Source of the DNA: Blepharisma japonicum
Taxonomy: Eukaryota > Ciliophora > Heterotrichea > Heterotrichida > Blepharismidae
Assembly (NCBI GenBank): GCA_949751835.1
Contig: CATKHK010000047.1
Span: 248,001-312,000, forward strand
DNA length: 64,000 nt
Direction: 5' to 3'
A program made the translations under genes and the position numbers. This document shows, one piece after another, positions 20,584 to 62,723 of this stretch (position 1 is its first letter; each line of letters opens with the position of its first letter). Under the pieces are notes generated by a model. That model searched no databases. It worked only from the letters and a program-made list of their open reading frames with translations, and was not told where the DNA came from.

Positions 20584-21327
20584 TTATGGGCTATTGAAGA
20601 TTCGAGCATAACAATAAGATAATCTTGCGCCATAAGATCCAGTCCAAAAATTAGTGTCTTTCCCAGAATAAGATATTTTAATTGTTCTATGATAAGGTTG
20701 AATTTCAAACTTAGTTTTCATCATATAAAGCACAGGCCCAGGCTCACGAATGTTTAATTCATCAAGTTTATAAGTGTCTGTTATTTCATGGTTTTCATCA
20801 TATATCACTACTTTAAGCTTTGCTAATGCTCCATCATCACTTCTTCTGCTTACATATGCTCCTATAATAAAAAATCTCTTTTGATCTGATAATGGAATAT
20901 AAATAACCTGCGTTAAGTCACACCATTCATATGAAGATGCAAAGACTGTCTTTTTATGTTTATAACCAGGCCAGCCTTCGATATTTCATCCATCACCTCC
21001 ATCACGTTTATCCCAAAATTTGAATCTGTTTTCTCCACATGGATTTTTAATCATGTTTTGTGATGACTTTATGCAGTTGAATAAATCTTCATAAGAAGTG
21101 AATGGATTGCACTCTAAGAATCTTGAAAAATATACAAGTATTTCAGGATCATTTTGATTTAGATTTGCAATCCAGCTTGCTATAGACTTTGAAACGTAGA
21201 AATAGTATTCGTGATTTGGTAAGTGTTGATGGAAATAATGATTTAAATAGAGCAACTTTAATGAATCGTTAGCGCTTAAGAAATCAGAAGCTCTCCTGAA
21301 GATAAAAATCAGTTCATTATCGTTCAT
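20584..21327 (-). CDS. F-box-like/FBA-domain protein, copy A
   Basis: 247 residues. N-terminal F-box-like segment (NELIFIFRRASDFLSANDSL), a helical linker, then an FBA (F-box-associated) domain: NPCGENRFKFWDKRDGGDGW, 'WPGYKHKKTVFASSYEWCDL', 'IPLSDQKRFFIIGAYVSRRS', 'EPGPVLYMMKTKFEIQ' and the end GKDTNFWTGSYGAR...CYARIF. This matches FBXO2/FBXO6-type sugar-recognising SCF adaptors. The Trp after DGGDG is TGA. The frame is intact across 744 nt. Its 3' end faces the BiP promoter. Start chosen at MNDN; the upstream MGN leader seen in copies B and C is frameshifted here. Confidence 0.85.
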
Positions 21328-22068
21328 TGTATTTTTTATATGACTTTTTGTCTGATTTCCATTTAAAATATAAATGTGTTTGGTTGATACTAGAAAATGA
21401 ATTTTTTATATAATTTTATGTGATGCATGTGTATACATAGAGATTTGTAAGATGAATGATTTCCAATTATTTTGCTTGCTAATTGCAAAAGGTGCGAGAA
21501 TTTTATCCTCTTCTAAAGTGTAATCTGCCAGCAAGACCATAGCCACATTGGAAATTTGTTGTATTGAGAATTTCAGGGGCATTGTTTAGGCAAGATTCTG
21601 ATGTAAAATTATAACAGGTCACATTTTTGGTTATTGCAAAGACAGCAAAAATTACTTGAATCCCTCAGCTGAGGGATAATTTAATGCTTGCAGATCTTTA
21701 AAATTTGAAGCTTAAAGAATTTTGCAAACAAATACTCATAGATAAACAGTGCAATTCTTAATTATCTAAGATAAGAAGTAGCGAGCTTAATTGAAACAAA
21801 TTTGTGACGCGTATATATAAACAGAAAGACAAACTGATTATTAAAATAGGCATATTTTTAGGTCTACAGCTAAGGCATCCACTGTTACAATTGTAGCATT
21901 TATTATATTGTGAACCATTTCAATATTGGCTAATCAGAATGCAAATTCCATTTGTAAGGCATGCTTTGCAATTTTCTCTGCACTATTCTGCAGGTGATAC
22001 AAGTGATAATATCATGACTTGTAATGATTTATTAGTAAAATAAAAAATTATAAATTAGTTTAAAGAAA
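21328..22068. other. Spacer between FBA copies A and B
   Basis: AT-rich, no coding pattern. I could not match it to the other inter-copy spacers, so it may be unique or older sequence. Confidence 0.4.
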
Positions 22069-22860
22069 TTAGGTTCTATTGAAGATCCGAGCAAAGCAAT
22101 AAGAGAATCTTGCACCATAATTTCCAGCCCACAATCTCGTGTCTTTCCCAGAATAAGTTATTTTAATTGTTCTATGATAAGATTGAATTTCAAACTTAGT
22201 TTTCAACATATAAAACACAGGCCCAGGCTCAGGTATACTTACTTCATCAATTTCATAAGTGTCTGTTTTTTCATGGTTTTCAGTATATACCTCTGCTTTA
22301 AGTTTTGCTAATGCTCCACAATCATCTCTTCTGCTCACATATGCCCCTATAATAATAAATCTCATTTTAGTTGATAATGGTATATTAATAACCTGCGTTA
22401 AGTCACACCATTCATAAGAAGATACAAAAACTGTCTTTTTATGTTTATAACCAGGCCAGTCTTCAATATTTCATCCGCCACCTCCATCTCGTTTATCCCA
22501 AAATTCATATTGCATTTCTCCACATGGATTTTTAATCAGGTTTTGAGCGGATTTTATGCATCTAATTCAATCATCATTCGAAGTAAACGGCTTGCGCTCT
22601 AAGAATCTTGCAAAATGGTCAAGTAACTCGGGATCATTTTGGTCAAGATTGGCAATCCAGGCAATCGTGCTTGGAATATACTTTGAAAGGTAGAAATAGT
22701 ACTCGTAATTTGGTAGCTGCTGATTGAAGTAACGATTTAAACAGAGAAGCTTTAATGAATCGTTGGCACTTAAGAAGTCAGAAGCTTTCCTGATGATACA
22801 AATCAGCTCATATTCATTTATTCTAGGCTTTTTATGTGGCTTTTTTGTTTGGTTTCCCAT
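22069..22860 (-). CDS. F-box-like/FBA-domain protein, copy B
   Basis: 263 residues, intact with TGA=Trp at two FBA positions. The only copy whose second potential start (MNEN in others) is Ile (ATA), so it must use the leader start MGNQTKKPHKK. The sugar-site loop reads DTRLWAGNYGAR. It has a two- or three-residue insertion in the linker (SKYIPSTIAWIANL) shared with copy F. 'Cys-Gly' in SRRDDCG matches D, F and G, and differs from the 'DDG' of A and C. Likely SCF-type substrate adaptor. Confidence 0.85.
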
Positions 22861-23174
22861 TTATTATATAAATATGCCTTAGAAAATCTAATTTTCATAT
22901 AAGTTAATGTTATATACGAAATTTCACTGTATTTTCAGAGATTTATAGAGTGAAAGATTATGGAGTAAGGGAAAATTTACAATTTTATAAAAGAATTTTA
23001 TTTATATCATCATAAAGATTAAAGAAATAATAACTGAATTTTTCGGGTTAAGATAATACAATACTTGTTTTTGTCCTGGACAATAATATAATTTACTAAA
23101 TTATCGCAAATCCAAGACTTTAACAATAAAAATTGATCTTTATGAATATTGTGCCTAAAATTGAAAAACTTTGT
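22861..23174. repeat. Duplicated upstream flank (partner at about 29045-29335)
   Basis: The stretch from about 22895 to 23174 aligns in order with about 29045-29335 (shared blocks such as tttatagag, tatcatcataaa, aataatataatttacta, gatctttatgaatattg). Both are upstream flanks of FBA genes (B and F). After the match, one copy runs into a TauE relic and the other into a BiP relic. Confidence 0.65.
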
Positions 23175-23661
23175 CTAGTATAAATTTTGACAATAGTAAT
23201 TACTTCTACAATTACCACTCTGGAAATATTAGGTGTAAGAAAACACAAATTTAGGTTGCATCAAGCAGCAGAACAATTAATTATGAGATCAATTCATAAT
23301 CTGTAAGAGGTCTTTGATTTTCGGTAGGATGGCGATCATTTAACTTATGGCTTACTGACATCAGAATTCCGTCAAATATAACAACTTGTGATAAAGGTAT
23401 TGTAGGGTTAAGTCATAGTTGAGCAAAAGCTAGCCGACATTTGTAGTGAGTGGGGCCACTATTAATTTCAGCTGAAGCGATAAAGCACTGATAACTATAT
23501 TAATAAAAGTCAATATAAATTCACTATTTGCTATAGGAAAGAGATCTTTATGCTTGCGTTCTCCATTGACATAGTTGTGAAGCTACTTGCATAATAATTG
23601 TGCTCACAAAATTTAGAGGCGGTGATTGAAAAAGGATGAGGAGAAATCGAACTTTTTTCAT
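23175..23661 (-). pseudogene. Relic 1 of TauE/SafE-like gene (5' third)
   Basis: Similar to the first 150-160 codons of the intact gene at 31357-32679, starting with the ATG-AAA-AAA signal-peptide codons at 23661. Shared text includes ttttgtgagcac, cataaagatctctttcctat, gtgctttatc and caacttgtgataaag (opposite strand). Frameshifts appear right after the signal peptide. It ends at the same internal point (codons for IVKIY) as relic 2 at 26160-26534, so both derive from one truncated copy. Confidence 0.8.
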
Positions 23662-24141
23662 ATTTATTTTTAAGAGATATTAGATATGCTTCACAACATA
23701 AAAATGAAATTATAAAACTAATAATTTTTAATAAATTGATATCAAAATTCAAAAGATTTGTGTTGAAAGTTACTCTATAAATTCTAGAAATGATTTTTAG
23801 GTAGATGTGATAGCAATCATAAATTTAAATCATGCTTTAATATAAGCACACATATACGCCACCATAATTTACCTTAAAAATATGGATTTAATATCTGGTT
23901 GTCATATTGATATTTATTGTTATGCTTTAGATTTAACTTCTATTCTTGCTAAATTGACCCTTAGTTAAAGCTATAAAGCAATTACTCTGGAGAAAATATT
24001 TTAAGCTTTTTTGAAAATTTCTTTTCTCCATAATCATTCATTTTATAAATTTCTGCAAATATATTTCAATTTTGTGTACCACTATAACTTATATAAATAA
24101 TTAGATTTTTTAAAATATACACAGACATATTTATATATTAA
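23662..24141. other. Spacer between TauE relic 1 and FBA copy C
   Basis: AT-rich and non-coding. The last 40 bases share the 'acatatttatata' block found just upstream of the MGN start in other FBA copies. Confidence 0.4.
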
Positions 24142-24924
24142 ATGGGAAACCAAACAAAAAGCCATATAAAAAAAACTACAATGAACGAAAATGAGCTGAT
24201 TTTTATCTTCAGGAGAGCTTCTGATTTCTTAAGTGCTAACGATTCATTAAAGCTTCTCTGTTTAAATCATTATTTCCACCAGCACTTACCAAATCACGAG
24301 TACTATTTCTATGTTTCAAAATCTATCGCAAGCTGGATTGCTAATTTAAACCAAAGTGATCCCGAAATACTTGACCATTTTGCAAGATTCTTAGAGTGTA
24401 ATCCATTTACTTCTTATGATGATTTATTCAACTGCATAAAATCATCACAAAACATAATTAAAAATCCATGCGGAGAAATGCAATTTACATTTTGGGATAA
24501 ACGTAATGGAGGTAATGGATGAAATGTTGAAGACTGGCCCGGTTATAAACATAAAAAGACAGTTTTTGCATCTTCTTATGAATGATCTGACTTAACGCAG
24601 ATTATTAATATTCCATTATCAGATCAAAAGAAATTTATTATTATAGGAGCGCATGTTAGCAGAAGATGGGATGATGGAGCATTAGCAAAATTTAAAGCAG
24701 AGGTATATGATGAAAACCATAAAATAAGGGACACTTATAGAATTGATGAAGTAAACATACCTGAGCCTGGACCTGTATTTTATATTATGAAAACTAAGTT
24801 TGAAATTCAACCTTATCATAAAACAATTAAAATAACTTATTCTGGTAAAGACACCAATTGATGGGCTGGATATTATGGAGCAAGATTCTCTTATTGCTAT
24901 GCTCGGATTTTCAATAGCCCATAA
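24142..24924 (+). CDS. F-box-like/FBA-domain protein, copy C (inverted)
   Basis: 260 residues; the only copy on the plus strand. Both starts (MGNQTKSH and MNENEL, 13 codons apart) are present and in frame. TGA encodes Trp at three FBA positions (GNGW, YEW and DTNWW). Sugar-site loop DTNWWAGYYGAR. 'HVSRRWDDG' has an extra Trp shared with copy E. Downstream (24925-25110) it carries the BiP promoter in inverted orientation, so the whole FBA-BiP-promoter piece was flipped. Confidence 0.87.
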
Positions 24925-25319
24925 TCTCCTATTAAAACTAATCGCAAAAGTTTTATAATTCTTTGTATTTTTAAATAAATTCTTATAGCCCTCTTCATTT
25001 CATTTAGTCAATAATTTTTTCCTTTTTACGAAAATCTAGAAATCTCAATTTTCCGATTTCTTTAAAAATTTATTCAAATGATTTCCTCTATTCCCAAAAT
25101 TTCTCATTCCTTAGCTCTTAATTTATAATTGCTTTGTTCCTCATTTGTGATTGCGGTCTACCTCAATTTCTGTAAACTAAATGCAAAGGTTGCTTATTTA
25201 TCTATCTCAATTCCTCTATTAAGAAATCTATTGAAAAGCTTAAGTTATAATAAAACTTACGAGTTTTTATTAGAATAACAAAAGAATTATAAATTACTTT
25301 TGAGATTAGTTAATAAGAG
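24925..25319. repeat. Inverted BiP-promoter copy joined to duplicated FBA 3' flank
   Basis: About 24960-25110 is the reverse complement of the BiP upstream region 20400-20560 (ataattttttccttttt, tctagaaatctcaattttcc). About 25116-25319 repeats directly at 28015-28218 (tgattgcggtctacctcaa, aatgcaaaggttgcttattt). The join is near 25112. Confidence 0.7.
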
Positions 25320-26072
25320 TTATGGGCTATTGAAGATCCGAGCAAAACAATAAGAGAATCTTGCACCATAATTTCCAGCCCAAAACCTCGTGTCTTTCCC
25401 AGAATAAATTATTTTAATTGCTCTATGATGAGGTTGAATTTCAAACTTAGTTTTCATCATATAAAACACAGGCCCAGGCTCAGGTATACATACTTTATCA
25501 ATTTCATAAGTGTCTGTTTTTTCATGGTCTTCAGTATATACCTTTGCTTTAAGTTTTGCTAATGCTCCACAATCATCTCTTCTGCTCACATATGCCCCTA
25601 TAATAATAAATCTCTTTTTATCTGATAATGGAATATTAATAACCTGCTCTAAATGACACCATTCATAAGAAGATACAAAAACTGTCTTTTTATGCTTATA
25701 ACCTGGCCAGTCTTCAATATTTCATCCGTGACCTCCATCGCGTCTCTCCCAAAAATTATATTGCATTTCTCCGCATGGATTTTTAATCATATTTTGTGAT
25801 GATTTTATGCAATTGAATAAATCATCATAAGAAGTAAATGGATTACACTCTAAGAATCTTGCAAAATTGTCAAGTATTTCGGGATCATTTTGGTTAAGAT
25901 TGGCACATCAGGCAATCCAGCTTGGTATAGACTTTGAAACATAGAAATGGTACTCGTGATTTGGTAAGTGCTGATTGAAATAATGATTTAAACAGAGCAG
26001 ATTTAATGAATCGTAAGTGCTTAAGAACTCGGAAGCTCTCCTGAAGATAAAAATCAGCTCATTTTCGCTCAT
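25320..26072 (-). CDS. F-box-like/FBA-domain protein, copy D
   Basis: 250 residues from MSENEL; broken only if TGA is read as stop. It has an odd insertion in the linker (SWIAWCANLNQND, where others have SWIANLNQND) including a TGA Trp. Sugar-site loop DTRFWAGNYGAR. 'EWCHLEQV' replaces 'EWCDLTQV', as in copy F. A one-base loss in the leader puts the MGN start out of frame. F-box-like segment and FBA domain are complete. Confidence 0.83.
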
Positions 26073-26159
26073 TTTGTTATTTTTTATATGGCTTTTGTTT
26101 GGTTTCCCATTTATTATATAAATATGCCTGGAAATTTTTTAAAAAAGCTAATATTTATA

Positions 26160-26534
26160 TATAAACTTTGACAATAATAATTACTTCTACTATTGCTACT
26201 CTGGAAATATTAGGTGTAAGAAAACAAAAATTTAGGTTGCATCAAGTAGCAGAATAATTAATTATGAGATCAATTCATAATCTGTAAGAGGTCTTTGATT
26301 TTCTGTAGGATTGTGATTATTTAATTTATGGCTTACTGATATCAGGGTTCCATCGAATATAACAACTTGTGATAAAGTTATTGCATGGATTAAGTCATAG
26401 TTGAGCAAAAGCTCACCGACATTTGTATTGAGTGAGCCCCACCAAGTCCAGCTGAAGTTGATAAAGCAATGATAACTTTATTTATAAAAGTCCATATAAA
26501 TTCACTATTTGCTACAGGAAAGAGATCTTTATGT
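26160..26534 (-). pseudogene. Relic 2 of TauE/SafE-like gene, fused to BiP relic
   Basis: Covers the region from CKHKDLFP through the first transmembrane repeat of the intact gene and ends at the same break as relic 1. Several frameshifts. Its 5' end is joined at about 26534-26538 to BiP-derived sequence, so the TauE signal-peptide region has been replaced by BiP codons. Confidence 0.8.
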
Positions 26535-26883
26535 TTGTAAAAGCTTCTTATCATTTTGTACCCTGCCTTAAACATATTTTCTGCCAATAAGTTTTTTGAC
26601 ACACTAAGTTGTACCGCTAGGATTGCTTGTAGCTAGGCTTTTAGCAGCTTTTCTGATTAGTCTTTTGCCTTCTTCTAAAAGTGAGAAGTATGAAGTAATG
26701 ATTCTGTTTCCTTAGCCGTAAGGGATTATCTCTATACCCACATAAGAGTGTTGTGCCCAAGTCAATTCCTACAACAGGACCTTTAATGTTGCTGTCCTTT
26801 GAGTCTGCATTGGGTGAAAAGAATAAGCAAGCAGTTATTAATCCAAAATATGCAATGCCTAATGTTCGCAGCTTTTGAGACAT
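26535..26883 (-). pseudogene. BiP relic 1 (first ~115 codons)
   Basis: Starts MSQKLRTLGIAYFGLIT, matching the BiP signal peptide and VGIDLGTT, then loses frame after 'GTTLLCGYRDN'. Nucleotide similarity continues to the codons for DKKLL, where TauE sequence takes over. The upstream 300 bp also match the BiP promoter. The ACGTG palindrome near the ATG is lost. Confidence 0.88.
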
Positions 26884-27188
26884 TTTTATTATAAAGTGTT
26901 ATTTATGTATCCAATTTAGATGATATAAAGAGTGGAAGAATTTTTCTGGAATTGAGAGGAAAAATAAAGACTAAAGACTAATTATTGAGGGAAAGAGGGG
27001 AAGGAATGAGAAGTTTTGGAATAGAGGAAATGATTTGAGCAGATTTTTAAAGAAATTAGAAAATTGAGATTTCTAGATTTTCATAAAAAGGAAAAAATTA
27101 TTGACTGAATGAAATGAAGAGGGTTATAAGGATTTATTTAGAAATTACAAAAGAATTATAAAACTTTTGCGATTAGTTTAATAGGAGA
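26884..27188. repeat. Copy of BiP upstream region
   Basis: Direct, diverged copy of 20285-20583, keeping ttttctggaattgagag and the ggaaaaaattattgactgaa block. It joins BiP relic 1 to the 3' end of FBA copy E in the same arrangement as BiP and copy A. Confidence 0.75.
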
Positions 27189-27932
27189 TTATGAGCTATT
27201 GAAAATCCGAGCATAACAATAAGAGAATCTTGCTCCATAATATCCACGCCATCAATTGGTGTCTTTCCCAGAATAAGTTATTTTAATTGCTCTATGATAA
27301 GGTTGAATTGCAAACTTAGTTTTCATCATATAAAATACAGGCCCAGGCTCAGGTATGTTTACTTCATCAATTCCATAAGTGTCTGTTATTTCATGGTTTT
27401 CACCATATACCTCTGCTTTAAATTTTGCTAATGCTCCATTGTCCCATCTTCTGCTAACATGCGCTCCTATAATAATAAATCTCTTTTGATCTGATAATGG
27501 AATATTAATAACTTGCGTTAAGTCAGACCATTCATAAGAAGATGCAAAAACTGTCTTTTTATGTTTATAGCCAGGCCAGTCTTCAACATTTCATCCGTTA
27601 CCTCCTTTACGTCTATCCCAAAATGTAAATTGCATTTCTCCACATGGATTTTTAACTATGTTTTGTGATGATTTTATGCAATTGAATAAATCATCATAAG
27701 AAGTAAATGGATTGCACTCTAAGAATCTTGCAAAATGGTCAAGTATTTCGGGATCATTTTGGTTTAAATTGGCAATCCAGCTTGCTATAGACTTTGAAAC
27801 GTAGAAATAGTACTCGTGATTTGGTAAGTGCTGATTGAAGTAATGATTTAAACAGAGTAGCTTTAATGAATCGTTAGCGCTTAAGAAATCAGAAGCTCTC
27901 CTGAAGATAAAAATCAGCTCATTTTCGTTCAT
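27189..27932 (-). CDS. F-box-like/FBA-domain protein, copy E
   Basis: 247 residues from MNENEL. The upstream leader is in frame, but its ATG has become TTG, so the start is the inner Met. TGA=Trp at GNGW and DTNWW. Sugar-site loop DTNWWRGYYGAR. 'HVSRRWDNG' links it to copy C, its closest relative by eye. Position relative to BiP relic 1 is the same as copy A to BiP. Confidence 0.85.
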
Positions 27933-28014
27933 TGTATTTTTTTTTATATGGCTTTTTGTTTGGTTTCCCAATTAATATATAAATATGTCTGGGTATATTT
28001 TAAAAAATCTAAGA

Positions 28015-28218
28015 TCTTAATTTATAATTGCTTTGCTCCTCATTTATGATTGCGGTCTACCTCAATTTCTGTAAACTAAATGCAAAGGTTGCTTATTTAT
28101 CTATCTCAATCCTTCTATAAAGAAATCTATTGAAGAGCTTAATTTATAATAAAATTTGCGAGCTTTTATTAGAATAACAAAAGAATTATAAATTACTTTT
28201 AAGGTTAGTTAATAAGAG
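28015..28218. repeat. Duplicated FBA 3' flank (partner 25116-25319)
   Basis: Near-identical to the 3' flank of copy D. A shortened version precedes copy G (about 29700-29765). It marks copies D and F as products of one recent duplication. Confidence 0.7.
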
Positions 28219-28971
28219 TTATGGGCTATTGAAGATCAGAGCATAACAATAAGAGAATCTTGCACCATAATGTCCAGCCCACCAATTCGTGTCTTTCCCA
28301 GAATAAGTTATTTTAATTGCTCTATCATAAGGTTGAATTTCAAACTTAGTTTTCATCATATAAAACACAGGTCCAGGCTCAGGTATGTTAATTTCATCAA
28401 TTTCATAAGTGTCTCTTTTTTCATAGTTTTCAGTATATACCTTTGCTTTAAGTTTTGCTAATGCTCCACAATCACTTCTTCTGCTCACATGTGCCCCTAT
28501 AATAATAAATCTCTTTTTATCTGATAATGGAATATTAATAACCTGCTCTAAATGACACCATTCATAAGAAGATACAAAAACTGTCTTTTTATGCTTATAA
28601 CCTGGCCAGTCTTCAATATTTCATCCGTGACCTCCATTGCGTCTCTCCCAAAAATTATATTGCATTTCTCCGCATGGATTTTTAATCATGTTTTGTGATG
28701 ATTTTATGCAATTGAATAAATCATCATAAGAAGTAAAAGGATTACACTCTAAGAATCTTGCAAAATGGTCAAGTATTTCGGGATCATTTTGGTCAAGATT
28801 GGCAATCCAGGCAATCGTGCTTAATATAGACTTTGAAACGTAGAAATAGTACTCGTGATTTGGTAAGTGCTGATTGAAGTAATGATTTAAACAGAGAAGC
28901 TTTAATGAATCGTTGGCACTTAAGAACTCAGAAGCTCTCCTGAACATAAAAATCAGCTCATTTTCGTTCAT
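28219..28971 (-). CDS. F-box-like/FBA-domain protein, copy F
   Basis: 250 residues from MNENEL; the MGN leader upstream runs into TAA. Linker 'SILSTIAWIANLDQND' resembles copy B, while 'EWCHLEQV' resembles copy D, a mosaic pattern suggesting gene conversion. Sugar-site loop DTNWWAGHYGAR. Frame intact with TGA=Trp. Confidence 0.85.
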
Positions 28972-29044
28972 TTTATTATTTTTTTGTATGGGTTTTTGTT
29001 TGGTTTCCCATTTATTATATAAATATGCCTGGAAATTTTTTAAA

Positions 29045-29335
29045 AAAGCTTATTTTTATATAAGTTAATGTGCACGAGATTGCATAATAATAGCAGAGAT
29101 TTATAGAAGATTGTGGAGAAAGGGGAAATTTACAATTTGATAAAGAGAATTTTATTTATGTCATCATAAAAATTCAACAAATATATGCTGAATTTTTTGG
29201 ATTAAAATAATAAAATGCAATTTATTGTGATGGTCAATAATATAATTTACTATAGCGCCGCAAATTCAAGAAATGTCGACAATAAAAATTTGATCTTTAT
29301 GAATATTGTACCTAAAATTAAAAACTTTTACATAA
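29045..29335. repeat. Duplicated upstream flank (partner 22895-23174)
   Basis: Matches the flank upstream of copy B, and ends where BiP promoter sequence (cataaataacacg) begins. Confidence 0.65.
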
Positions 29336-29355
29336 ATAACACGTTTATAATAAAA

Positions 29356-29699
29356 ATGTCTTAAAAACTGCAAACATTAGGCATTGAATATTTTGGATTG
29401 ATAGCTGCTTATTCTTTCCAGCCAATTTAGGCTCAAAGATAGTGACATTAAAGGTCCTACTGTAGGAAATGGCTTGGGCACAACATTCTTATGTGGGTAT
29501 AGAGATCATCCTTAACGACTAAGGAAACAGAATCATTCCTTCATACTTCTCAATTTCAGAAGAAGACAAAAGACTAGTCAGTAAGGTTGCTAAAAATCTA
29601 ACTACAAGCAATCCTAACGGCACAGCTTAGTATGCCAAAAGACTTATTTTCAGAAATATGTTTAAGGCTCAGTACAAAATGGCAAGAAGCTTTTATTAT
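29356..29699 (+). pseudogene. BiP relic 2 (inverted)
   Basis: Plus-strand copy of the first ~115 BiP codons: ATG TCT TAA where BiP has ATG TCT CGA, then 'GLGTT', 'CGYRD', and the codons for LIGRKY. Multiple stops and frameshifts. It shares the GTTFLCGYRD-type changes with relic 1, so the relics share an already broken ancestor. It ends at almost the same codon as relic 1. Confidence 0.8.
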
Positions 29700-29765
29700 A
29701 ACTTGCGAGAATTTATTAGAAAACAAAAGAATTATAAATTACTTTTGAGATTAGTTAATAGGAGA

Positions 29766-30509
29766 TTATGGGCTATTGAAGATCCGAGCATAGCAATAAG
29801 AGAATCTTGCTCCATAAGTTCCAGCCCATATATTGGTGTCTTTCCCGGAATAAGTTATTTTAACTGTTCTATGATTAGGTTTAATATCAAACTTAGTTTT
29901 CATCATATAAAGCACAGGTCCAGGCTCACGAATGTTTACTTCATCAAGTTTACGAATGCCTGCTACTTTCTTATCTTTATCATATATCACTACTCTAAGT
30001 TTTGCTAATGCTCCACAGTCACTTCTTCTGCTCACATGTGCCCCTATAATAATAAATCTCTTTTTAGCTGATAATGGAATATTAATAGTCTGCGTTAAAT
30101 CACACCATTCATAAGAAGTAGTAAAAACTGTTGTTTTATGTTTATAACCGGGCCAGTCTTCAATATTTCATCCATCACCTCCATCGCGTCTATCCCAAAA
30201 TTTAAATTGCATTTCTCCGCATGGGTTTTTAATTCTGTTTTGTGAAGACTTTATGGAGTTGAATAAATCATCATAAGAAGAAAATGGATTGCAATCTAAG
30301 AATCTTGTGAAATGGTCAAGTATTTCGGGATCATTTTGGTTTAAATTGGCAATCCAGCTTGCAATAGACTTTGAAACATAGAAATAGTACTCGTGATTTG
30401 GTAAGTTCTGGTGGAAATAATGATTTAAACAGAGTAGCTTTAATGAATCGTTAGCGCTTAAGAAATCGGAAGCTCTCCTGAAGATAAAAATCAGCTCATT
30501 TTCATTCAT
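29766..30509 (-). CDS. F-box-like/FBA-domain protein, copy G
   Basis: 247 residues from MNENEL, frame intact. Sugar-site loop DTNIWAGTYGAR. 'YKHKTTVFTTSYEW' and 'VVIYDKDKKVAGIRKLDEVNIREPGPVLY' show more changes than in other copies; 'REPGPVLYMMKTKF' is shared with copy A. The MGN leader is out of frame. Confidence 0.85.
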
Positions 30510-41030: not shown

Positions 41031-42092
41031 ATGCGACCTAGCAAATCTAAAGAGCCTTCTAATAGTGCAATAAATGCAGCAGCTCTGCAAGACCATTTAT
41101 TAAGATCGCTGGGGTTTAATAATGTTGAACTTCAGCCTTCAACTGTGAAACCAAAATCAAAACCTCTTGCATCATTTGGAAGAAAAATCGTAAATGATAG
41201 GAAAAATCATTTAAAAATCAAGCCTCATGATAGTGATATAGAAGAAATAAGGCAAAGAGCCCAAAATTTCCAAAATAAACTAACACTTGCACAGAGACTA
41301 GGATTAATTGAAAAACCAGCACCTCCTTTAAATGAAGATCAATGACTTAGGGTGGAGCAAAAAGCACAGTCAAGAGGAGAACACAAAGGATGCTGCCCAA
41401 TTTGCCAAGAAGTGTTTGGGAGGGCTCCTAGTGTCATTTTAAGCTGCACTCACGTTTTTCATAAACAATGCTTGCAAAGTTTTGAAAAATACGCAAAAAT
41501 CAAAGTATGCCCTATCTGCAGAAGAAATTCTTATGAAAAGAAGAATTATCATAAAACTGAAGAGTTTTATAGAGAACAGTGTGCTATAAAGATACAAGCT
41601 TATTATAGAGGTTACAGAGCTCGAAAAGCTTATATGGAGCATCTCAGATTAAACCCTCCTCAGCATCCTTTGGTTAGGAGAAAATACTTTGGGCAGCAGC
41701 TGCATGGATTGACTGATAAATTGACAGAGGACATGGATAGAAGAGAAAGATCTATTGAATTTTTATTCAGGCAGCTTGATGAGCAGCAGGAGGCTTCTCG
41801 ACAAGTTTTTCAAGCTTTTCAACGGCAGCAAGCAAGAACTGGATCTCAAGCTCAGCAAAATAGAGAAAATTTGGAACAATGGGAGCATATTAAGCATCAA
41901 GCTTTAATAAGAAACGATAAAGAGTGTTCAATCTGTTTGCAATCTTTTCAAGACAGAAGAGAAAAATGTGTACTGTCTTGCTCTCATGTATTTCATTCAA
42001 AATGTATAGAAGGCTTTGAGTATTTTGATATCCACAGAGAGCATCATTGTCCAGTATGCAGACAACAATACTTAAGAACAATATTTCCTTAA
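41031..42092 (+). CDS. RNF32: RNF32-like protein: two RING-H2 fingers flanking an IQ motif
   Basis: 353 residues, with Trp (TGA) at 41343. First RING (about 120-162): CCPICQEVF...CTHVFHKQCL...CPICRR. IQ motif: CAIKIQAYYRGYRARKAY. A charged helix follows, then a second RING (about 300-346): CSICLQSF...CSHVFHSKCI...CPVCRQQ. The order RING-IQ-RING and the conserved 'LTLAQRLGLIEKP' N-terminal block match animal RNF32, a testis/ciliary-lineage protein. Probable E3 ligase with calmodulin binding. Confidence 0.93.
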
Positions 42093-45786: not shown

Positions 45787-46527
45787 ATGGAGAAGTCTCC
45801 GGATTTCCGAATTCGAAATAAATCAACTAATTCGCGATTTACAGCGCAAGTAGGAAAAAATAGACAGCGTGTCAGGAAATCGCAGTCAATAGTTTCAAAT
45901 TGACAATCACAAATGAGTTCTATTGAGAGCGAAAGGCAAAGTGACGTGATGATGGATTCGACAGAAAATAAAGATTTTAAAATATTGCTGAAAGAGATAA
46001 GGGAATTAGATAGTAAACAAAGAAATGTAAAATATATGTAGCATATAGCCCAAGTCAGAGTTCAAATTGGTAAGCAAAAAGAACTTATAAAAAATCTCAA
46101 AAATGAAAACGAAGAATTGAAACAGCGGATTAAACGAAGGAGAAGGATTAATCCAAGGCAGCTATTAAGGATACTGCAAAACAACTTATCGCAGGAACAA
46201 TATAGATTCGAAGAATTCGAACAATGACAACTAGAAATGATAATAAATCAATCATATGCTGCTGAACAAGAGATCTACAGTAATCGGCATCATGATGAAC
46301 TTCAAAATAACCTCCCTTCAGAAGAAATCGTAACTTTTATTCAGAATATTCCAATCCCCAATACTAGCTCCGACCACCTCTGCTCAATTTGTATCAGTCT
46401 AATAAAATCCAATACAAATTCAAAAACTCTTGAAAAGTGCGGGCACAAGTTTCATCCCGAATGCATTGACAATTGATTAATCTCCAACCCCAATTGTCCA
46501 ATTTGCCACACATCAATTAATTCATAA
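45787..46527 (+). CDS. RING-H2 protein with coiled coil
   Basis: 241 residues after removing a 15-nt intron (46027-46041); three TGA=Trp. Basic N-terminus, acidic/Ser middle, a coiled coil (KQKELIKNLKNENEELKQRI) and a C-terminal RING-H2: CSICISLI...CGHKFHPECIDNW...CPIC. The last Trp before NCPIC is TGA, and without it the RING would lose its final ligand pair. Likely an E3 ubiquitin ligase. Confidence 0.85.
46027..46041 (+). other. 15-nt intron in RING-H2 gene
   Basis: gtaaaatatatgtag; contains an in-frame TAG. Confidence 0.85.
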
Positions 46528-46557: not shown

Positions 46558-48681
46558 TTAACTGTATATCCAATTTTCAAATAAAAGAGTTGGAGGCCAT
46601 AATGACTTAGGATTGATGTCTTGATATTTGTGATTTATTGACTCAAGCCTTGTATATTGAGGATTGCTTCTAGCCTCAAGCCAGATCTCTTTTATATGCT
46701 GAACTGCATGCTCAAATTCTTCATTTGAGTATTTTGGGAAAAATAATATTTTATCTTTGAATTCTGCAAATCTTTGAGTAAAAGCACAGCTTATATATAA
46801 GATTGCAGAAGCTAAGAGTGAAGGGGCATAAAAAATGCTATCATAAGATAGGAGCATTAAGTCTGATAAATATACGGCAATTCTATAGGTCTCTTGGTCG
46901 AGATTCAGCAATGATTGATATGCTTTCATGAAAAATAAAATAGTAGGAGACAATAATCTGAACTTCAGAAGATTTAAAATATCTTTTTCCATTGTAACTA
47001 CTTGAGATGGAGAATATTCATCTGCTGTAATATAAGCGTATTCGATTGAATTTTCTTGCCGATAATATTCTTTAGATCTTTCATGAAACACATCAGCAAT
47101 TTTCATGCATGTTACTCCGACAAGCTGAAGCTTAGACCTATCAATAACCAGCTTGCCTAGGACTCTATCTATATAACTAACTGCAAGATGAAGGGTTTCA
47201 TCGCTAACTTCAAAATGGACACTTACATCAATAAGCCAATCAATTAGTATGCTTCTCATAGAGTGGCTTATATTTGATTGAGAGTTCAAATAATTCGAAG
47301 GAAGTAGCTCAGATTCTAAAGCATGGAGCTGGGCTATATAATTAGGAATTTCAAAGTCAAAAGAAGGACGCAAGATCTGGGGCGTTTGAGACACTAAAAA
47401 TGGGTGGCTTAAAGCCATAGCAGCTGTTATTCGTGTTGCAGGGTTTGGATCTAAACATTTCTGCAATAAATCGAGCCCATCTTCTCCAATGATTTTTCCA
47501 ATCTCCCTTAGCGTTGTAAAAATTTGCTCTCTTGCAGGCACAAGCTTGGCAAAAACAGTTTTAAAAGTTTTGGAGTTTTTCTGAGATATAACATCAGGGA
47601 AGTTAAAAGGAGTTCAGCTTGGAAACGATTTTGCTTGAATTGGGTAGATATCTGAAGGAACCCCAGTCGCTTTAAAAATTTTAAACAATTGTTCAATTTC
47701 GCTTTCACCATTGAATAATGCTTGGCCAGTTATTAATTCTGCCATTAGGCATCCTACAGTTCATACATCCACCTCAAAACCATATATATCTTTGCGGAAT
47801 AACAGTTCAGGAGCTCTATATCATAATCTCCTTGCTTCTCTACCTGACCTATCTCTTTCTTTTGGATCTTCTGGGGTGTATTGGCCATGAGGAATTGATG
47901 TTAGCCTTGACAACGTAAAATCAGCAATTTTTACTGTTCCTGAGCCTGATATAAGAATATTGTCAGGCTTTAAGTTTCTATGAACAATTCCTTTGTTGTG
48001 TATATATTGAACTCCTTCGAACAATTGCCTGATTAAATTTTGGACGTTTTCTTTTGAAATTTTGTTCTTATCAGATACATTAGTTTTAATGTATTCTTTC
48101 AGATTGTATTCTTCGTAGTCTGTGCAAATGTAGACTACTTTGCCTGAGACTTCTCCGCCAATGAGTTTAACAACATTTGGGTGTGAGAGTTCTGATAGGT
48201 AACTGATTTCTCTCAATAAGGAAGTGGGTACTCCGTCATCATAGCCAGCATTTGTTACATCTAAATACACTTTTCTAAGCATCACAGGGGCATCTAAACT
48301 TCTTAGAATCCCTCTGAAGAGCTTTCCTTTGGATCTTCGCTCGACTAAGCATTTTATGCATCTTACCATTCATTTCATTTCTATTTGTTTTGACTCCAAA
48401 TTCTTCCATAGCATTGGAGTATTGGCCAGCTGCCTTCACAATTTGGAGACTAACTGAATTTTCATCACTAAGTCTTTTGCTGGGAAAAAATCAAAAATAT
48501 AAATCAGAATTTCTGTTGGAAGAGCATCAAAAGGCCTGAAGCATTTCTTTTTAGCGATTTCTTTTCCTTTCTGCTGATTTCGATTTTCAATATTATTTAG
48601 AGACAGCTCAGACAGGCATTCCCTTTGTTTTGGTTTTCGTTTTAATAATCGATAGTTTCCTCTGAGTCCCTCTTTCTTCAT
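46558..48681 (-). CDS. F-box / CDK-like pseudokinase / cyclin triple fusion
   Basis: One uninterrupted 707-residue frame (ATG 48681 to stop 46558) if TGA is Trp; no intron needed. Domains in order: F-box (about 51-97: FDALPTEILIYIFDFFP...VSKLWRQLANTPMLWKNL); CDK-type kinase (about 108-430) with 'LRKVYLD' Lys137, a PSTAIRE-like GVPTSLLREISYL, HPNVVKL, 'LWYRAPELLF', 'VDVWTVGCLMAEL' and 'SEIEQLFKIF'; then an A/B-type cyclin (about 438-690) with MRSILIDWLIDV, 'ETLHLAVSYIDRVL', 'KLQLVG' and 'MEKDILNLLKFRL'. Key kinase residues are changed: HRNLKPDN (Asn236 for catalytic Asp) and DFT for DFG, and the glycine loop is degenerate. So probably a pseudokinase scaffold coupling SCF to a cyclin. Confidence 0.92.
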
Positions 48682-59873: not shown

Positions 59874-62723
59874 TTATAGTTGTGCAAATGGACTTTTTTG
59901 GATGAATGGCTGAGATATGACTTTTGATCTTGTCTCCGGCAATTTTTGGGGCTTTTTTTCTGGCTCTACTTTTGCTACTTTTGAAATCTTTGCAACCGGC
60001 TTGAAGCCTGGAGGTGCGAATATGGGGATTTTAGGCTTTGGAGGGTTTAAAAAGGGTTTTTCCGCTCCAGTTGTACCTTGAAGCTGAGATAATTTGTTTT
60101 CTATCTGCTCTTCTTTTTCTTCAAGATTATTTATCTTGGTTTCTAATTCCTCTTGTGCAAGGCCAAGATTTGTTTCTTTCTTTTGGGTTAATTTTTGCTC
60201 TTCAGATTCTGTTATTTCTGTTGGAAACTTTAAGTAATCCATTTGTATATGCTCTTCTTTAAGCTCCATTGGCTCCTCTTTATAATGTTGAATTGGAGGA
60301 CTTATCGGAGTTTTATGATTTTTTTGTTCAATAAATTGAGCTTCTGGGTTACTATTTTGAATTTCTATTGAATCTTTTGTTTTATTCTCAATATCCCATT
60401 TAAATTCAGTTTCTATATTCTGGCTGATCTCAGCAATTTCTTCATTCTTTTTATCTGTGCCTTCATTCAGCTCTCTTGGCTTATCTGGAATATGCATTGA
60501 TACAGCGACCTGAGTGATCGAAACATATGGAATTTCTTCAGGACCCTCTTTGAGTGAATCTATTTTCATCCAAATGTCTTGGTGTGAGGACAAAATTTGT
60601 GACTGAAATTCGTTTTGTTTTTCATGGATAATTGAGATTTCCTTCTTGATATCTGAGAATTTATCTTTGAGATCTGCATTCAGTTTATTCTTTATTTTGT
60701 CAATTTGGCTATTATCTAAATCAGTTTTAGTTAGTTCTTTAAGCGATACAATCATTTTTTCTAGTTCTTTATTTTTGGCATCTATGATTTGAGTAATTGT
60801 ACTTTGCTGCTTTTCTTCGACTATTTTGTAAGAAAATGAATGATTTACTCCTCTTCGATCAAAAATTTTGTAAATTATGTAAGAAAAGCAGAAATAAAAA
60901 ATAATGATATTGTAGGGTTGCTTGTTTCTTATGTAAAGATATACCGAAGATATCATATTTTCAGTTCTCAATGCAAATTTTATAAATAGGACTTTAAAAT
61001 CTACCTGGTCTATATCCAAAAATGGTGTTTCATCATTATGAATTTTCTCTGCATTATTGGCTGTATCTGTTTGGTCATCAGAAATTATAGTAGGTTCAGA
61101 TATTATATCAGACTGTTTATCAGTAGAAATAATTTCAGGGTTAGCTTCTACATCACTGTTTTGGTTTTCTAATTGATTTTCTTCAGATATTGTGTCCGAG
61201 ACTTGCTCAATAGAATCAGATTTTTCAGCAGCTTCTGAGCCGAAATCCATTTCTTTGATATTTGTTAATTGCTCATCCTTATTTATGGTTAATTGATTGT
61301 CGATGTGCGCTTCACCATGAGAATCAATGCAAGATTTTCCATTCTTTTCTTCTACTCCTTCACAGCTTAAATTTTCAGCAGATTTATCTACCTCTAAAGC
61401 ATTCGAATCTTGTAAACTCCCTGAATTGTCTTTGTTCGATTCCTCTTCAGCTTTTATGCTTTCTTCTCTTTTGTATTGTTCATTAGCTTTTGGCTCTTCC
61501 TGGTTACTATTGGAACTGTCTGTATTTGGTACTACCTCAATATTTATGCTTTTCTTGCTTTCATTATACTCATTTACATTTGGCTCTTCTTGGTTTATTC
61601 CAGAATCGGCTTCATTTCTTTCTTCTTCGATTTTGCTTCTTTCGTTATTTTCATCCTGCTCACTAGTATTTAATCCATCATATTTCGTTTCAGAATCATT
61701 CTCATTTTGATCTATCTCCTTGCTAATGCTTGTTTTTAGCTCTTCTCTATTTATTTCATCAGGACTACTTTCAGAATTATTTTCATCTTGCAATGTCTCA
61801 ATATTTGTGTTTTCCTTGCTTTGCTCAAGTGCTTCTATAGTAAATTCCTCATTATATTTGTTTTGATCTATTATTTCTTCTACAAGATTATCTTTTTTAC
61901 CTTCTTCTTCAGCTCCATGCTCGGATGATGCATTTTCTTGATCTAATGGGGACTCTCTCACTAATTCTGTATTGGTATTAGAATTCAGTTTACAAGATTC
62001 ATCAGAACATTCAGCATTATCTGAGCTAGATGGTATAAGCTGACTGTCAATTTCCTTCTCGCTAACACTTTGACTGCTATTTTCTTCATTAAGTATTTCA
62101 GCAGCATTTTCATTTATCTCTAAATTTTTTTCAACATTTGTATTTTCTTGCTGCTCTAATACCTTATTTTCTTGAATAGAATCAACTTCATTACTTACTT
62201 GCTCAACTTCTATACTGCTATCTTTTTCAGAATTGAAAATACAAGCGCCATTGGCACAGTTTGGATTTTCTTGTTCATCAGACTGTAAATCTTCCTTGTC
62301 ATCACTTGCTGCATCAATTCTGTCTTTACTTTCAAGAATTTCATCTGTTTTTAATTGATTATTTTCATTAATGTTGCCTTCTTCTAACAATTGTTCTGAA
62401 AAATCATCGGAATTTTCTTCGCTAGGATTGTCCTCGTTTGTGTTAACTTCTTGTTCAATTGAATTGATCTCATGCTGGATGCTATTAGTAGGCTCATCAT
62501 TATTAGTTTTCTGAGTATTTTCTTCATTTATTGGATTTGCGATTTGTTTAGATTCATCATTTGGATTGGGATTCAAATTTTGATTCTCAGATAACTCATG
62601 TGTCAGGCTTTCCTCATTTTTTTCTGTTTCTACCTCCAAAACTGCTGTATCCTCAGCGTATGTGTTTTGATCTTGATTTTCAAAAGCAAATACACCTAAA
62701 AGGATGACAAGGAAAATCCTCAT
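59874..62723 (-). CDS. Large acidic single-pass membrane protein
   Basis: 949 residues with an N-terminal signal peptide (MRIFLVILLGVFAFENQ), about 560 very acidic Glu/Asn/Ser/Asp-rich lumenal or extracellular residues holding short repeats (NQEEPNVNEYN, NQEEPKANEQYK) and two Cys pairs (ECSDESCK, CANGACIF), one transmembrane helix near 600 (IIIFYFCFSYIIYKIF), and a cytosolic coiled coil (LEKMIVSLKELTKTDLDNSQ, 'KINNLEEKEEQIENKLSQL') with a Pro-rich basic end. Could be an ER calcium-buffering or tethering protein. Low-complexity sequence hides homology. Confidence 0.75.
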   Translation of the reverse strand: MRIFLVILLGVFAFENQDQNTYAEDTAVLEVETEKNEESLTHELSENQNLNPNPNDESKQIANPINEENTQKTNNDEPTNSIQHEINSIEQEVNTNEDNPSEENSDDFSEQLLEEGNINENNQLKTDEILESKDRIDAASDDKEDLQSDEQENPNCANGACIFNSEKDSSIEVEQVSNEVDSIQENKVLEQQENTNVEKNLEINENAAEILNEENSSQSVSEKEIDSQLIPSSSDNAECSDESCKLNSNTNTELVRESPLDQENASSEHGAEEEGKKDNLVEEIIDQNKYNEEFTIEALEQSKENTNIETLQDENNSESSPDEINREELKTSISKEIDQNENDSETKYDGLNTSEQDENNERSKIEEERNEADSGINQEEPNVNEYNESKKSINIEVVPNTDSSNSNQEEPKANEQYKREESIKAEEESNKDNSGSLQDSNALEVDKSAENLSCEGVEEKNGKSCIDSHGEAHIDNQLTINKDEQLTNIKEMDFGSEAAEKSDSIEQVSDTISEENQLENQNSDVEANPEIISTDKQSDIISEPTIISDDQTDTANNAEKIHNDETPFLDIDQVDFKVLFIKFALRTENMISSVYLYIRNKQPYNIIIFYFCFSYIIYKIFDRRGVNHSFSYKIVEEKQQSTITQIIDAKNKELEKMIVSLKELTKTDLDNSQIDKIKNKLNADLKDKFSDIKKEISIIHEKQNEFQSQILSSHQDIWMKIDSLKEGPEEIPYVSITQVAVSMHIPDKPRELNEGTDKKNEEIAEISQNIETEFKWDIENKTKDSIEIQNSNPEAQFIEQKNHKTPISPPIQHYKEEPMELKEEHIQMDYLKFPTEITESEEQKLTQKKETNLGLAQEELETKINNLEEKEEQIENKLSQLQGTTGAEKPFLNPPKPKIPIFAPPGFKPVAKISKVAKVEPEKKPQKLPETRSKVISQPFIQKSPFAQL

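Follow-up and report, generated by a model that had tools for sequence, protein, structure and literature searches.

What kind of protein carries an F-box, a CDK-like kinase domain and a cyclin in one chain, and what could such a chain do? The question is raised by a frame of Blepharisma japonicum, located at 46558..48681 (-) of a window of 64,000 nucleotides (contig CATKHK010000047.1, positions 248,001 to 312,000 of the forward strand); the window is the whole stretch of DNA that was analysed, and the genome behind it (45.2 Mb, 224 contigs) was searched as well. The frame is open over 707 codons and ends with a TAA stop, given that TGA is read as Trp. With the standard code it breaks up, and the sole frame of at least 200 aa in this place is 46558-47541. 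The gene contains five TGA codons, two of which fall on W287 (in WYRAPE) and W307 (in VDxW), residues that do not vary when the protein is aligned with seven CDK-type kinases from this genome. A second copy of the gene, described below, likewise has TGA at the W287 and W307 positions, and this use of TGA on invariant residues, at the same two places in both copies, supports its reading as Trp. For B. stoltei, a genome of 41 Mbp, UGA coding for Trp and introns of 15-16 bp are reported (PMC9942806). Hidden tiny introns were considered for the fusion gene and rejected. GTA...AG stretches of 15 or 17 nt are absent from both copies, and the single 16-nt stretch of this type, which has an identical location in both copies, lies within a conserved motif and would break the frame on excision. 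Hence, there is no need to postulate a tiny intron.

A domain search of the 707-residue product, named as a check in the original prediction, returns F-box-like, Pkinase, Cyclin_N and Cyclin_C matches, all above the Pfam cut-offs, and the predicted unbroken frame with three domains is thus borne out. The arrangement is conserved in a second full-length copy, which was identified on another contig by a protein search of the same genome (C45:251222-253318). This paralogue is a 701-codon frame with six TGA codons; it shares the domain order, with the same four Pfam domains above cut-off, and also the HRN motif, the DFT motif and the loss of the ATP lysine that are described below for the window copy. 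The two proteins are 61% identical from end to end, across both domain junctions. Identity amounts to 49% in the F-box, 56% in the F-box-kinase linker, 66% in the kinase, 23% in the kinase-cyclin linker, 72% in Cyclin_N and 54% in Cyclin_C. At the codon level, pS between the copies is 0.74 overall and thus saturated, and pN is 0.26. With synonymous sites saturated and the protein constrained, the two copies are, judged by their codons, old and maintained by purifying selection; a chance frame or an assembly join is thereby excluded. An assembly join, the alternative that accompanied the original prediction, is excluded by the independent full-length paralogue on contig C45, and the related idea of neighbouring genes run together was rejected on the same grounds and because neither copy has a stop or a frame break.

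The surroundings of the two genes differ: no local synteny was seen among the neighbours scanned. The nearest scanned neighbours of the window gene code for a dynein light intermediate chain and an electron transfer flavoprotein. Beside the paralogue lie a protein that by eye resembles LRR proteins and a kinase frame recognised by phmmer (L010:3841-5022 and L010:346-1353). On the other strand of the window, the end of the frame 46042-46527 (+), in which a RING-like Cys/His pattern is seen by eye, lies some 30 bases from the stop codon of the fusion, the two genes being convergent. The window also contains a 353-aa protein in which an IQ motif separates two RING-finger stretches (41031-42092 (+)) and a 949-aa frame that has no Pfam match at E 0.001 (59874-62723 (-)).

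The possibility that such fusions are common in the genome was rejected. Among 78 Cyclin_N matches, the window gene and its paralogue are the only ones that have, on their own strand and no more than 6 kb away, an F-box match or a scored kinase match; the matches were compared with 103 F-box places (E up to 1) and 177 kinase places (eight duplicates entered once), proximity was judged from start positions, and 12 cyclin matches from the fusion-protein search were left out. One further F-box (on C5) and two further kinases (on C60 and C7) lie within this distance of a Cyclin_N match on the opposite strand. The kinase searches scored their best candidates only (the best 63 of 1136 and the best 134 of 1185), and a divergent kinase fused to a cyclin could therefore have escaped them. 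For 23 of the other 76 cyclin matches, the flanking DNA was scanned by phmmer with the kinase and the F-box of the window copy (E up to 0.01), and neither a fused kinase nor an F-box came to light; near one of these 23 lies a kinase, the frame of which is a separate one on the other strand. Relatives of the fusion were found neither in viral_contigs nor in genome_contigs. A CDK-profile scan of viral_contigs returned 119 kinase relatives, of which 80 loci at 23-36% identity were retained and then left out of the comparisons below, and a cyclin-profile scan returned no match.

What has become of the kinase in this chain? The CDK-like domain (residues 116-432; 47386..48336 (-)) is matched by Pfam Pkinase over residues 141-429 (E 1.8e-47), and the start of its N-lobe with the glycine loop is not recognisable. 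According to the alignment, the ATP-binding lysine (K33 of CDK2) is replaced by Arg in the motif VMLRK (48271..48285 (-)), HRD is replaced by HRN, with loss of the catalytic base (47974..47982 (-)), and DFG by DFT (47914..47922 (-)). Among the related kinases of the genome (n=25), HRD occurs in 24 and HRN in none, the remaining one giving no pattern match. The glycine loop, the ATP lysine, HRD and DFG are thus all altered in both copies, as the original prediction of degenerate kinase motifs had it, and the features of an active CDK are not found; the fusion CDK is apparently catalytically dead. The PSTAIRE-like helix VPTSLLREIS, with the equivalent of Glu51, is retained (48202..48231 (-)). 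The activation segment (47836..47877 (-)) has 11 extra residues, which are almost identical in both copies, and its T269 is aligned with T160 of CDK2, a placing that depends on the gap. Invariant columns (n=66) were defined on CDK2, from residue 28 onward, and ten CDK-type kinases of the genome; 49 are kept in the window copy, 50 in the second copy and 47 in both, a count that does not cover the glycine loop. The 19 not kept in both include K33R, D127N, G147T, T165 to Arg, R122 to Gly and E42 to Asp (CDK2 numbering), each changed identically in the two copies.

The residues kept in both copies include D145, N132, K129, E51, R50, R126, R150 and, with the same dependence on the gap, T160, and these would fit a kinase that is still active through an unusual active site and is self-activated by its own cyclin. 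With the ATP lysine, the catalytic Asp and the Gly of DFG lost alike in both copies, the glycine loop unrecognisable and T165 changed, however, we regard this as hardly credible. The simplest reading of the motifs is that a dead kinase has been retained as a scaffold. In a kinase tree, the two copies group together (100/100) on a stem of 2.03 within an open fork of 15 rows that includes PSTAIRE-type kinases; because of this long stem within the open fork, the exact origin of the fusion kinases is not placed. One candidate scaffold surface is GESEIEQ (47689..47709 (-)), which is identical in both copies and corresponds to the GDSEIDQ segment of CDK2, a segment that lies at the Cks site in CDK1/2. 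DSEIDQ is missing at this segment in five of the ten CDK-type kinases compared. Among the matches in the genome, which are not verified genes, seven are to CKS, 12 to the Skp1 domain and 14 to cullins. Humans have two CKS proteins, a number that the seven CKS-family matches exceed, and these are possible partners of a CDK-like scaffold.

The cyclin part consists of a Cyclin_N box (residues 452-576; 46954..47328 (-); Pfam E 9.5e-31) and a Cyclin_C box (residues 579-688; 46618..46947 (-); Pfam E 2.3e-10). The closest solved structures are those of cyclin A2 (121 bits) and B1 (101 bits), followed by cyclin F (70 bits), E1 (52 bits) and D1 (45 bits). The A/B-type assignment made at the outset is thereby upheld, and cyclin F is not the closest relative of this domain. 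The hydrophobic (RxL/Cy) patch reads MRSILIDW in the window copy (47236..47259 (-), by alignment; compare MRYIL of cyclin F) and MRSILVDW in the second copy, and at this position the seven separate genome cyclins aligned carry MRAIL in three cases and close variants of it in four. All 31 residues of block 525-555 (47017..47109 (-)) are identical in the alignment of the two copies, and this block contains a 5-residue insert that is absent from the seven separate genome cyclins aligned. The position of cyclin A K266 is occupied by Val in both copies. K266 of cyclin A and R122 and E42 of CDK2 are among the canonical CDK:cyclin contacts and, as all three are changed, a CDK2-like packing of the pair is not a given.

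Could the cyclin instead serve a separate CDK? The near-canonical cyclin boxes, with their score against cyclin A2, and the PSTAIRE-type CDKs of the genome (L011-L015) would suit a cyclin part that binds an active CDK in trans, giving an SCF-tethered kinase with phosphorylation and ubiquitylation in one place. Yet the fused kinase still has a PSTAIRE-like helix of its own and would be expected to compete in cis, and the Val at the K266 position also speaks against such an arrangement, which we consider decidedly unlikely.

F-box proteins bring substrates to Skp1-cullin ligases. The F-box of the window copy (residues 51-95; 48397..48531 (-)) is matched by Pfam F-box-like with E 1.5e-11 and 44.3 bits, and that of the paralogue with E 1.2e-9 and 38.2 bits (cut-off 24.3). 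The window copy also matches F-box proteins in the PDB at E 2.2e-5 and weaker. With a second F-box model, PF00646, the paralogue gives a marginal 20.7 bits (cut-off 20.5), and it is absent from the whole-genome PF00646 search at E 0.001. These weaker values, and an F-box that is less conserved between the copies than the kinase or Cyclin_N, count against an SCF role and would suit an F-box that is vestigial or acts outside SCF, the function of the protein then being that of an older kinase-cyclin fusion family. The kinase-cyclin fusions of oomycetes, in the parts of the literature consulted, are described without mention of an F-box, and hence the function of the family may predate any SCF role. 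Both copies nevertheless score well above the F-box-like cut-off in spite of their 49% identity and the saturation of synonymous sites, and we see only a small chance that the F-box is vestigial or acts outside SCF. Elsewhere in the window, 20584-30509 (-) contains six frames of similar size (247-263 aa), and the two of these six that were scanned have an FBA (F-box associated) domain and match no F-box model at E 0.001. In another contig of the genome, twelve F-box-like matches lie on one strand within 22 kb (C87:7566-29151), which looks like a tandem expansion.

The N-terminus ahead of the F-box contains a match to the destruction-box consensus, RxxLx(4,5)N, at residues 20-29 (48595..48624 (-)). 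This is the one match in the window copy; the paralogue has a match at residue 20 too and a second at residue 34. In shuffled 50-aa N-termini the motif is expected by chance in both copies with a frequency of about 0.008. Turnover by APC/C through this D-box-like motif is a lead only.

Taken together, we hypothesize that the fusion may function as an SCF substrate receptor that is cyclin F-like in its RxL docking and has a dead CDK as a built-in scaffold, a reading to which we give an even chance. It is favoured by recognisable F-boxes in both copies, by Skp1 and cullin matches in the genome, by constraint on all three domains, by the kept patch residues and by the identical loss of catalytic residues. 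The changed contacts K266, R122 and E42 count against it, in that the pair may pack differently. In the proposed mechanism, the F-box would bind Skp1, and a docking body would arise as the A/B-type cyclin packs in cis against the dead CDK. The cyclin patch would then catch RxL-bearing cell-cycle proteins for ubiquitylation, and the C-lobe of the kinase could catch Cks-bound phosphoproteins as a second docking face. Substrates caught in this way would be degraded, and the receptor itself might be removed via its D-box-like motif. That a CDK-cyclin pair has become a natural, self-assembled SCF receptor, in which the CDK is turned into a scaffold and RxL-docked substrates are destroyed and not phosphorylated, is the broader proposal, which we put forward tentatively and with some doubt.

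The same loss of catalysis and retention of scaffold residues, together with the D-box-like N-terminus, would also be consistent with a decoy, in which active CDKs are deprived of Cks, CDK inhibitors or RxL substrates by the dead CDK-cyclin pair and the F-box serves self-turnover alone. The suggestion by the authors of the Phytophthora study that the cyclin domain may regulate protein stability points in a similar direction (PMC3019232). On the other side, the F-box-kinase linker (residues 98-115; 48337..48390 (-)) is fairly conserved, with 10 of 18 residues identical between the copies, which suggests a defined geometry. An F-box that serves solely for self-degradation would, moreover, be unusual. 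A decoy is thus an unlikely explanation, though one to be kept in mind beside the substrate receptor.

How does the fusion compare with what has been described? In P. infestans, four CDKs with C-terminal cyclin domains have been confirmed by RT-PCR, in all of which the catalytic Asp is replaced by Asn; other oomycetes, Paramecium, Tetrahymena and Theileria annulata are reported to have related genes in which this residue is changed likewise (PMC3019232). CYC13 is a CDK-cyclin fusion of Tetrahymena, and such a fusion was first observed in Eufolliculina uhligi, in work of 1999 (PMC3143110). Eufolliculina uhligi is a heterotrich, like Blepharisma japonicum. PITG_21617 and the three other oomycete fusions, CYC13 and the Eufolliculina protein resemble the protein described here in having a kinase followed by C-terminal Cyclin_N and Cyclin_C domains in one chain, and the oomycete fusions and their relatives share with it the Asp-to-Asn change in subdomain VIb. 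An F-box, in contrast, is present here and is unmentioned for the oomycete fusions and CYC13, all of which are compared here by their published descriptions; the word F-box is absent from the main texts of PMC3019232 and PMC3143110. Since the N-terminal 35% of CYC13 is described just as without BLAST similarity to known sequences (PMC3143110), an F-box may have been overlooked there. The original prediction that the order of domains is undescribed therefore stands in part: the CDK-cyclin part with its Asp-to-Asn change had already been published, whereas an F-box is unreported on this fusion family among the listed matches from open-licence PubMed Central, none of which names an F-box-kinase-cyclin protein in its title or the start of its abstract. 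Any novelty is limited to the F-box. The portions of PMC9371601, PMC2705460, PMC6881465 and PMC3274533 that were covered contain nothing on the fusion, and the triple fusion may already appear in a Stentor kinome preprint, the title of which refers to novel domain architectures.

CDK-cyclin fusions have been noted since 1999 and 2010, and in the literature covered no function has been tested; the N-terminal F-box provides a concrete hypothesis, namely that the dead CDK-cyclin pair is a degradation receptor. If CYC13 and the Phytophthora fusions also hide F-boxes, the triple fusion would represent an old branch of SCF cell-cycle control within the SAR clade, one that runs alongside the cyclin F of animals. 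Fission yeast fusions of this kind are reportedly artificial and catalytically active, with the cyclin first and without an F-box. In these engineered proteins, cyclin and CDK are joined in one polypeptide (PMC4319789). Closer in layout is cyclin F (FBXO1), in which an F-box also lies N-terminal to a cyclin domain with an M-R-x-I-L patch (PMC6792013). Through its MRYIL patch, cyclin F recognises RxL/I motifs, and it causes p130 to be degraded; the patch changes M309A/L313A served as the control for its peptide binding (PMC8670743). Cyclin F differs in that no kinase domain is attributed to it in these accounts and in that the cyclin described here is nearer to A2 and B1. The substrate-receptor reading, if true, would make the fusion an independent invention of the role of animal cyclin F, with kinase docking turned into a degradation system. 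The assembly of SCF-Skp2 with Cks1 and CDK2-cyclin A brings together the same kinds of module, that is, an F-box, a CDK and a cyclin A, and CKS matches are present in the genome. Cks1 is a partner of Skp2 in SCF, and a model has been built in which CDK2-cyclin A, p27, Cks1, Skp1 and Skp2 form one complex (PMC6170502). In contrast to the fusion, which has no leucine-rich repeats detectable with Pfam and an apparently dead CDK in a single chain, that assembly is built from separate proteins around an active CDK. In effect, the fusion might thus be viewed either as a cyclin F with a built-in pseudo-CDK or as the Skp2-CDK2-cyclin A assembly condensed into a single chain.
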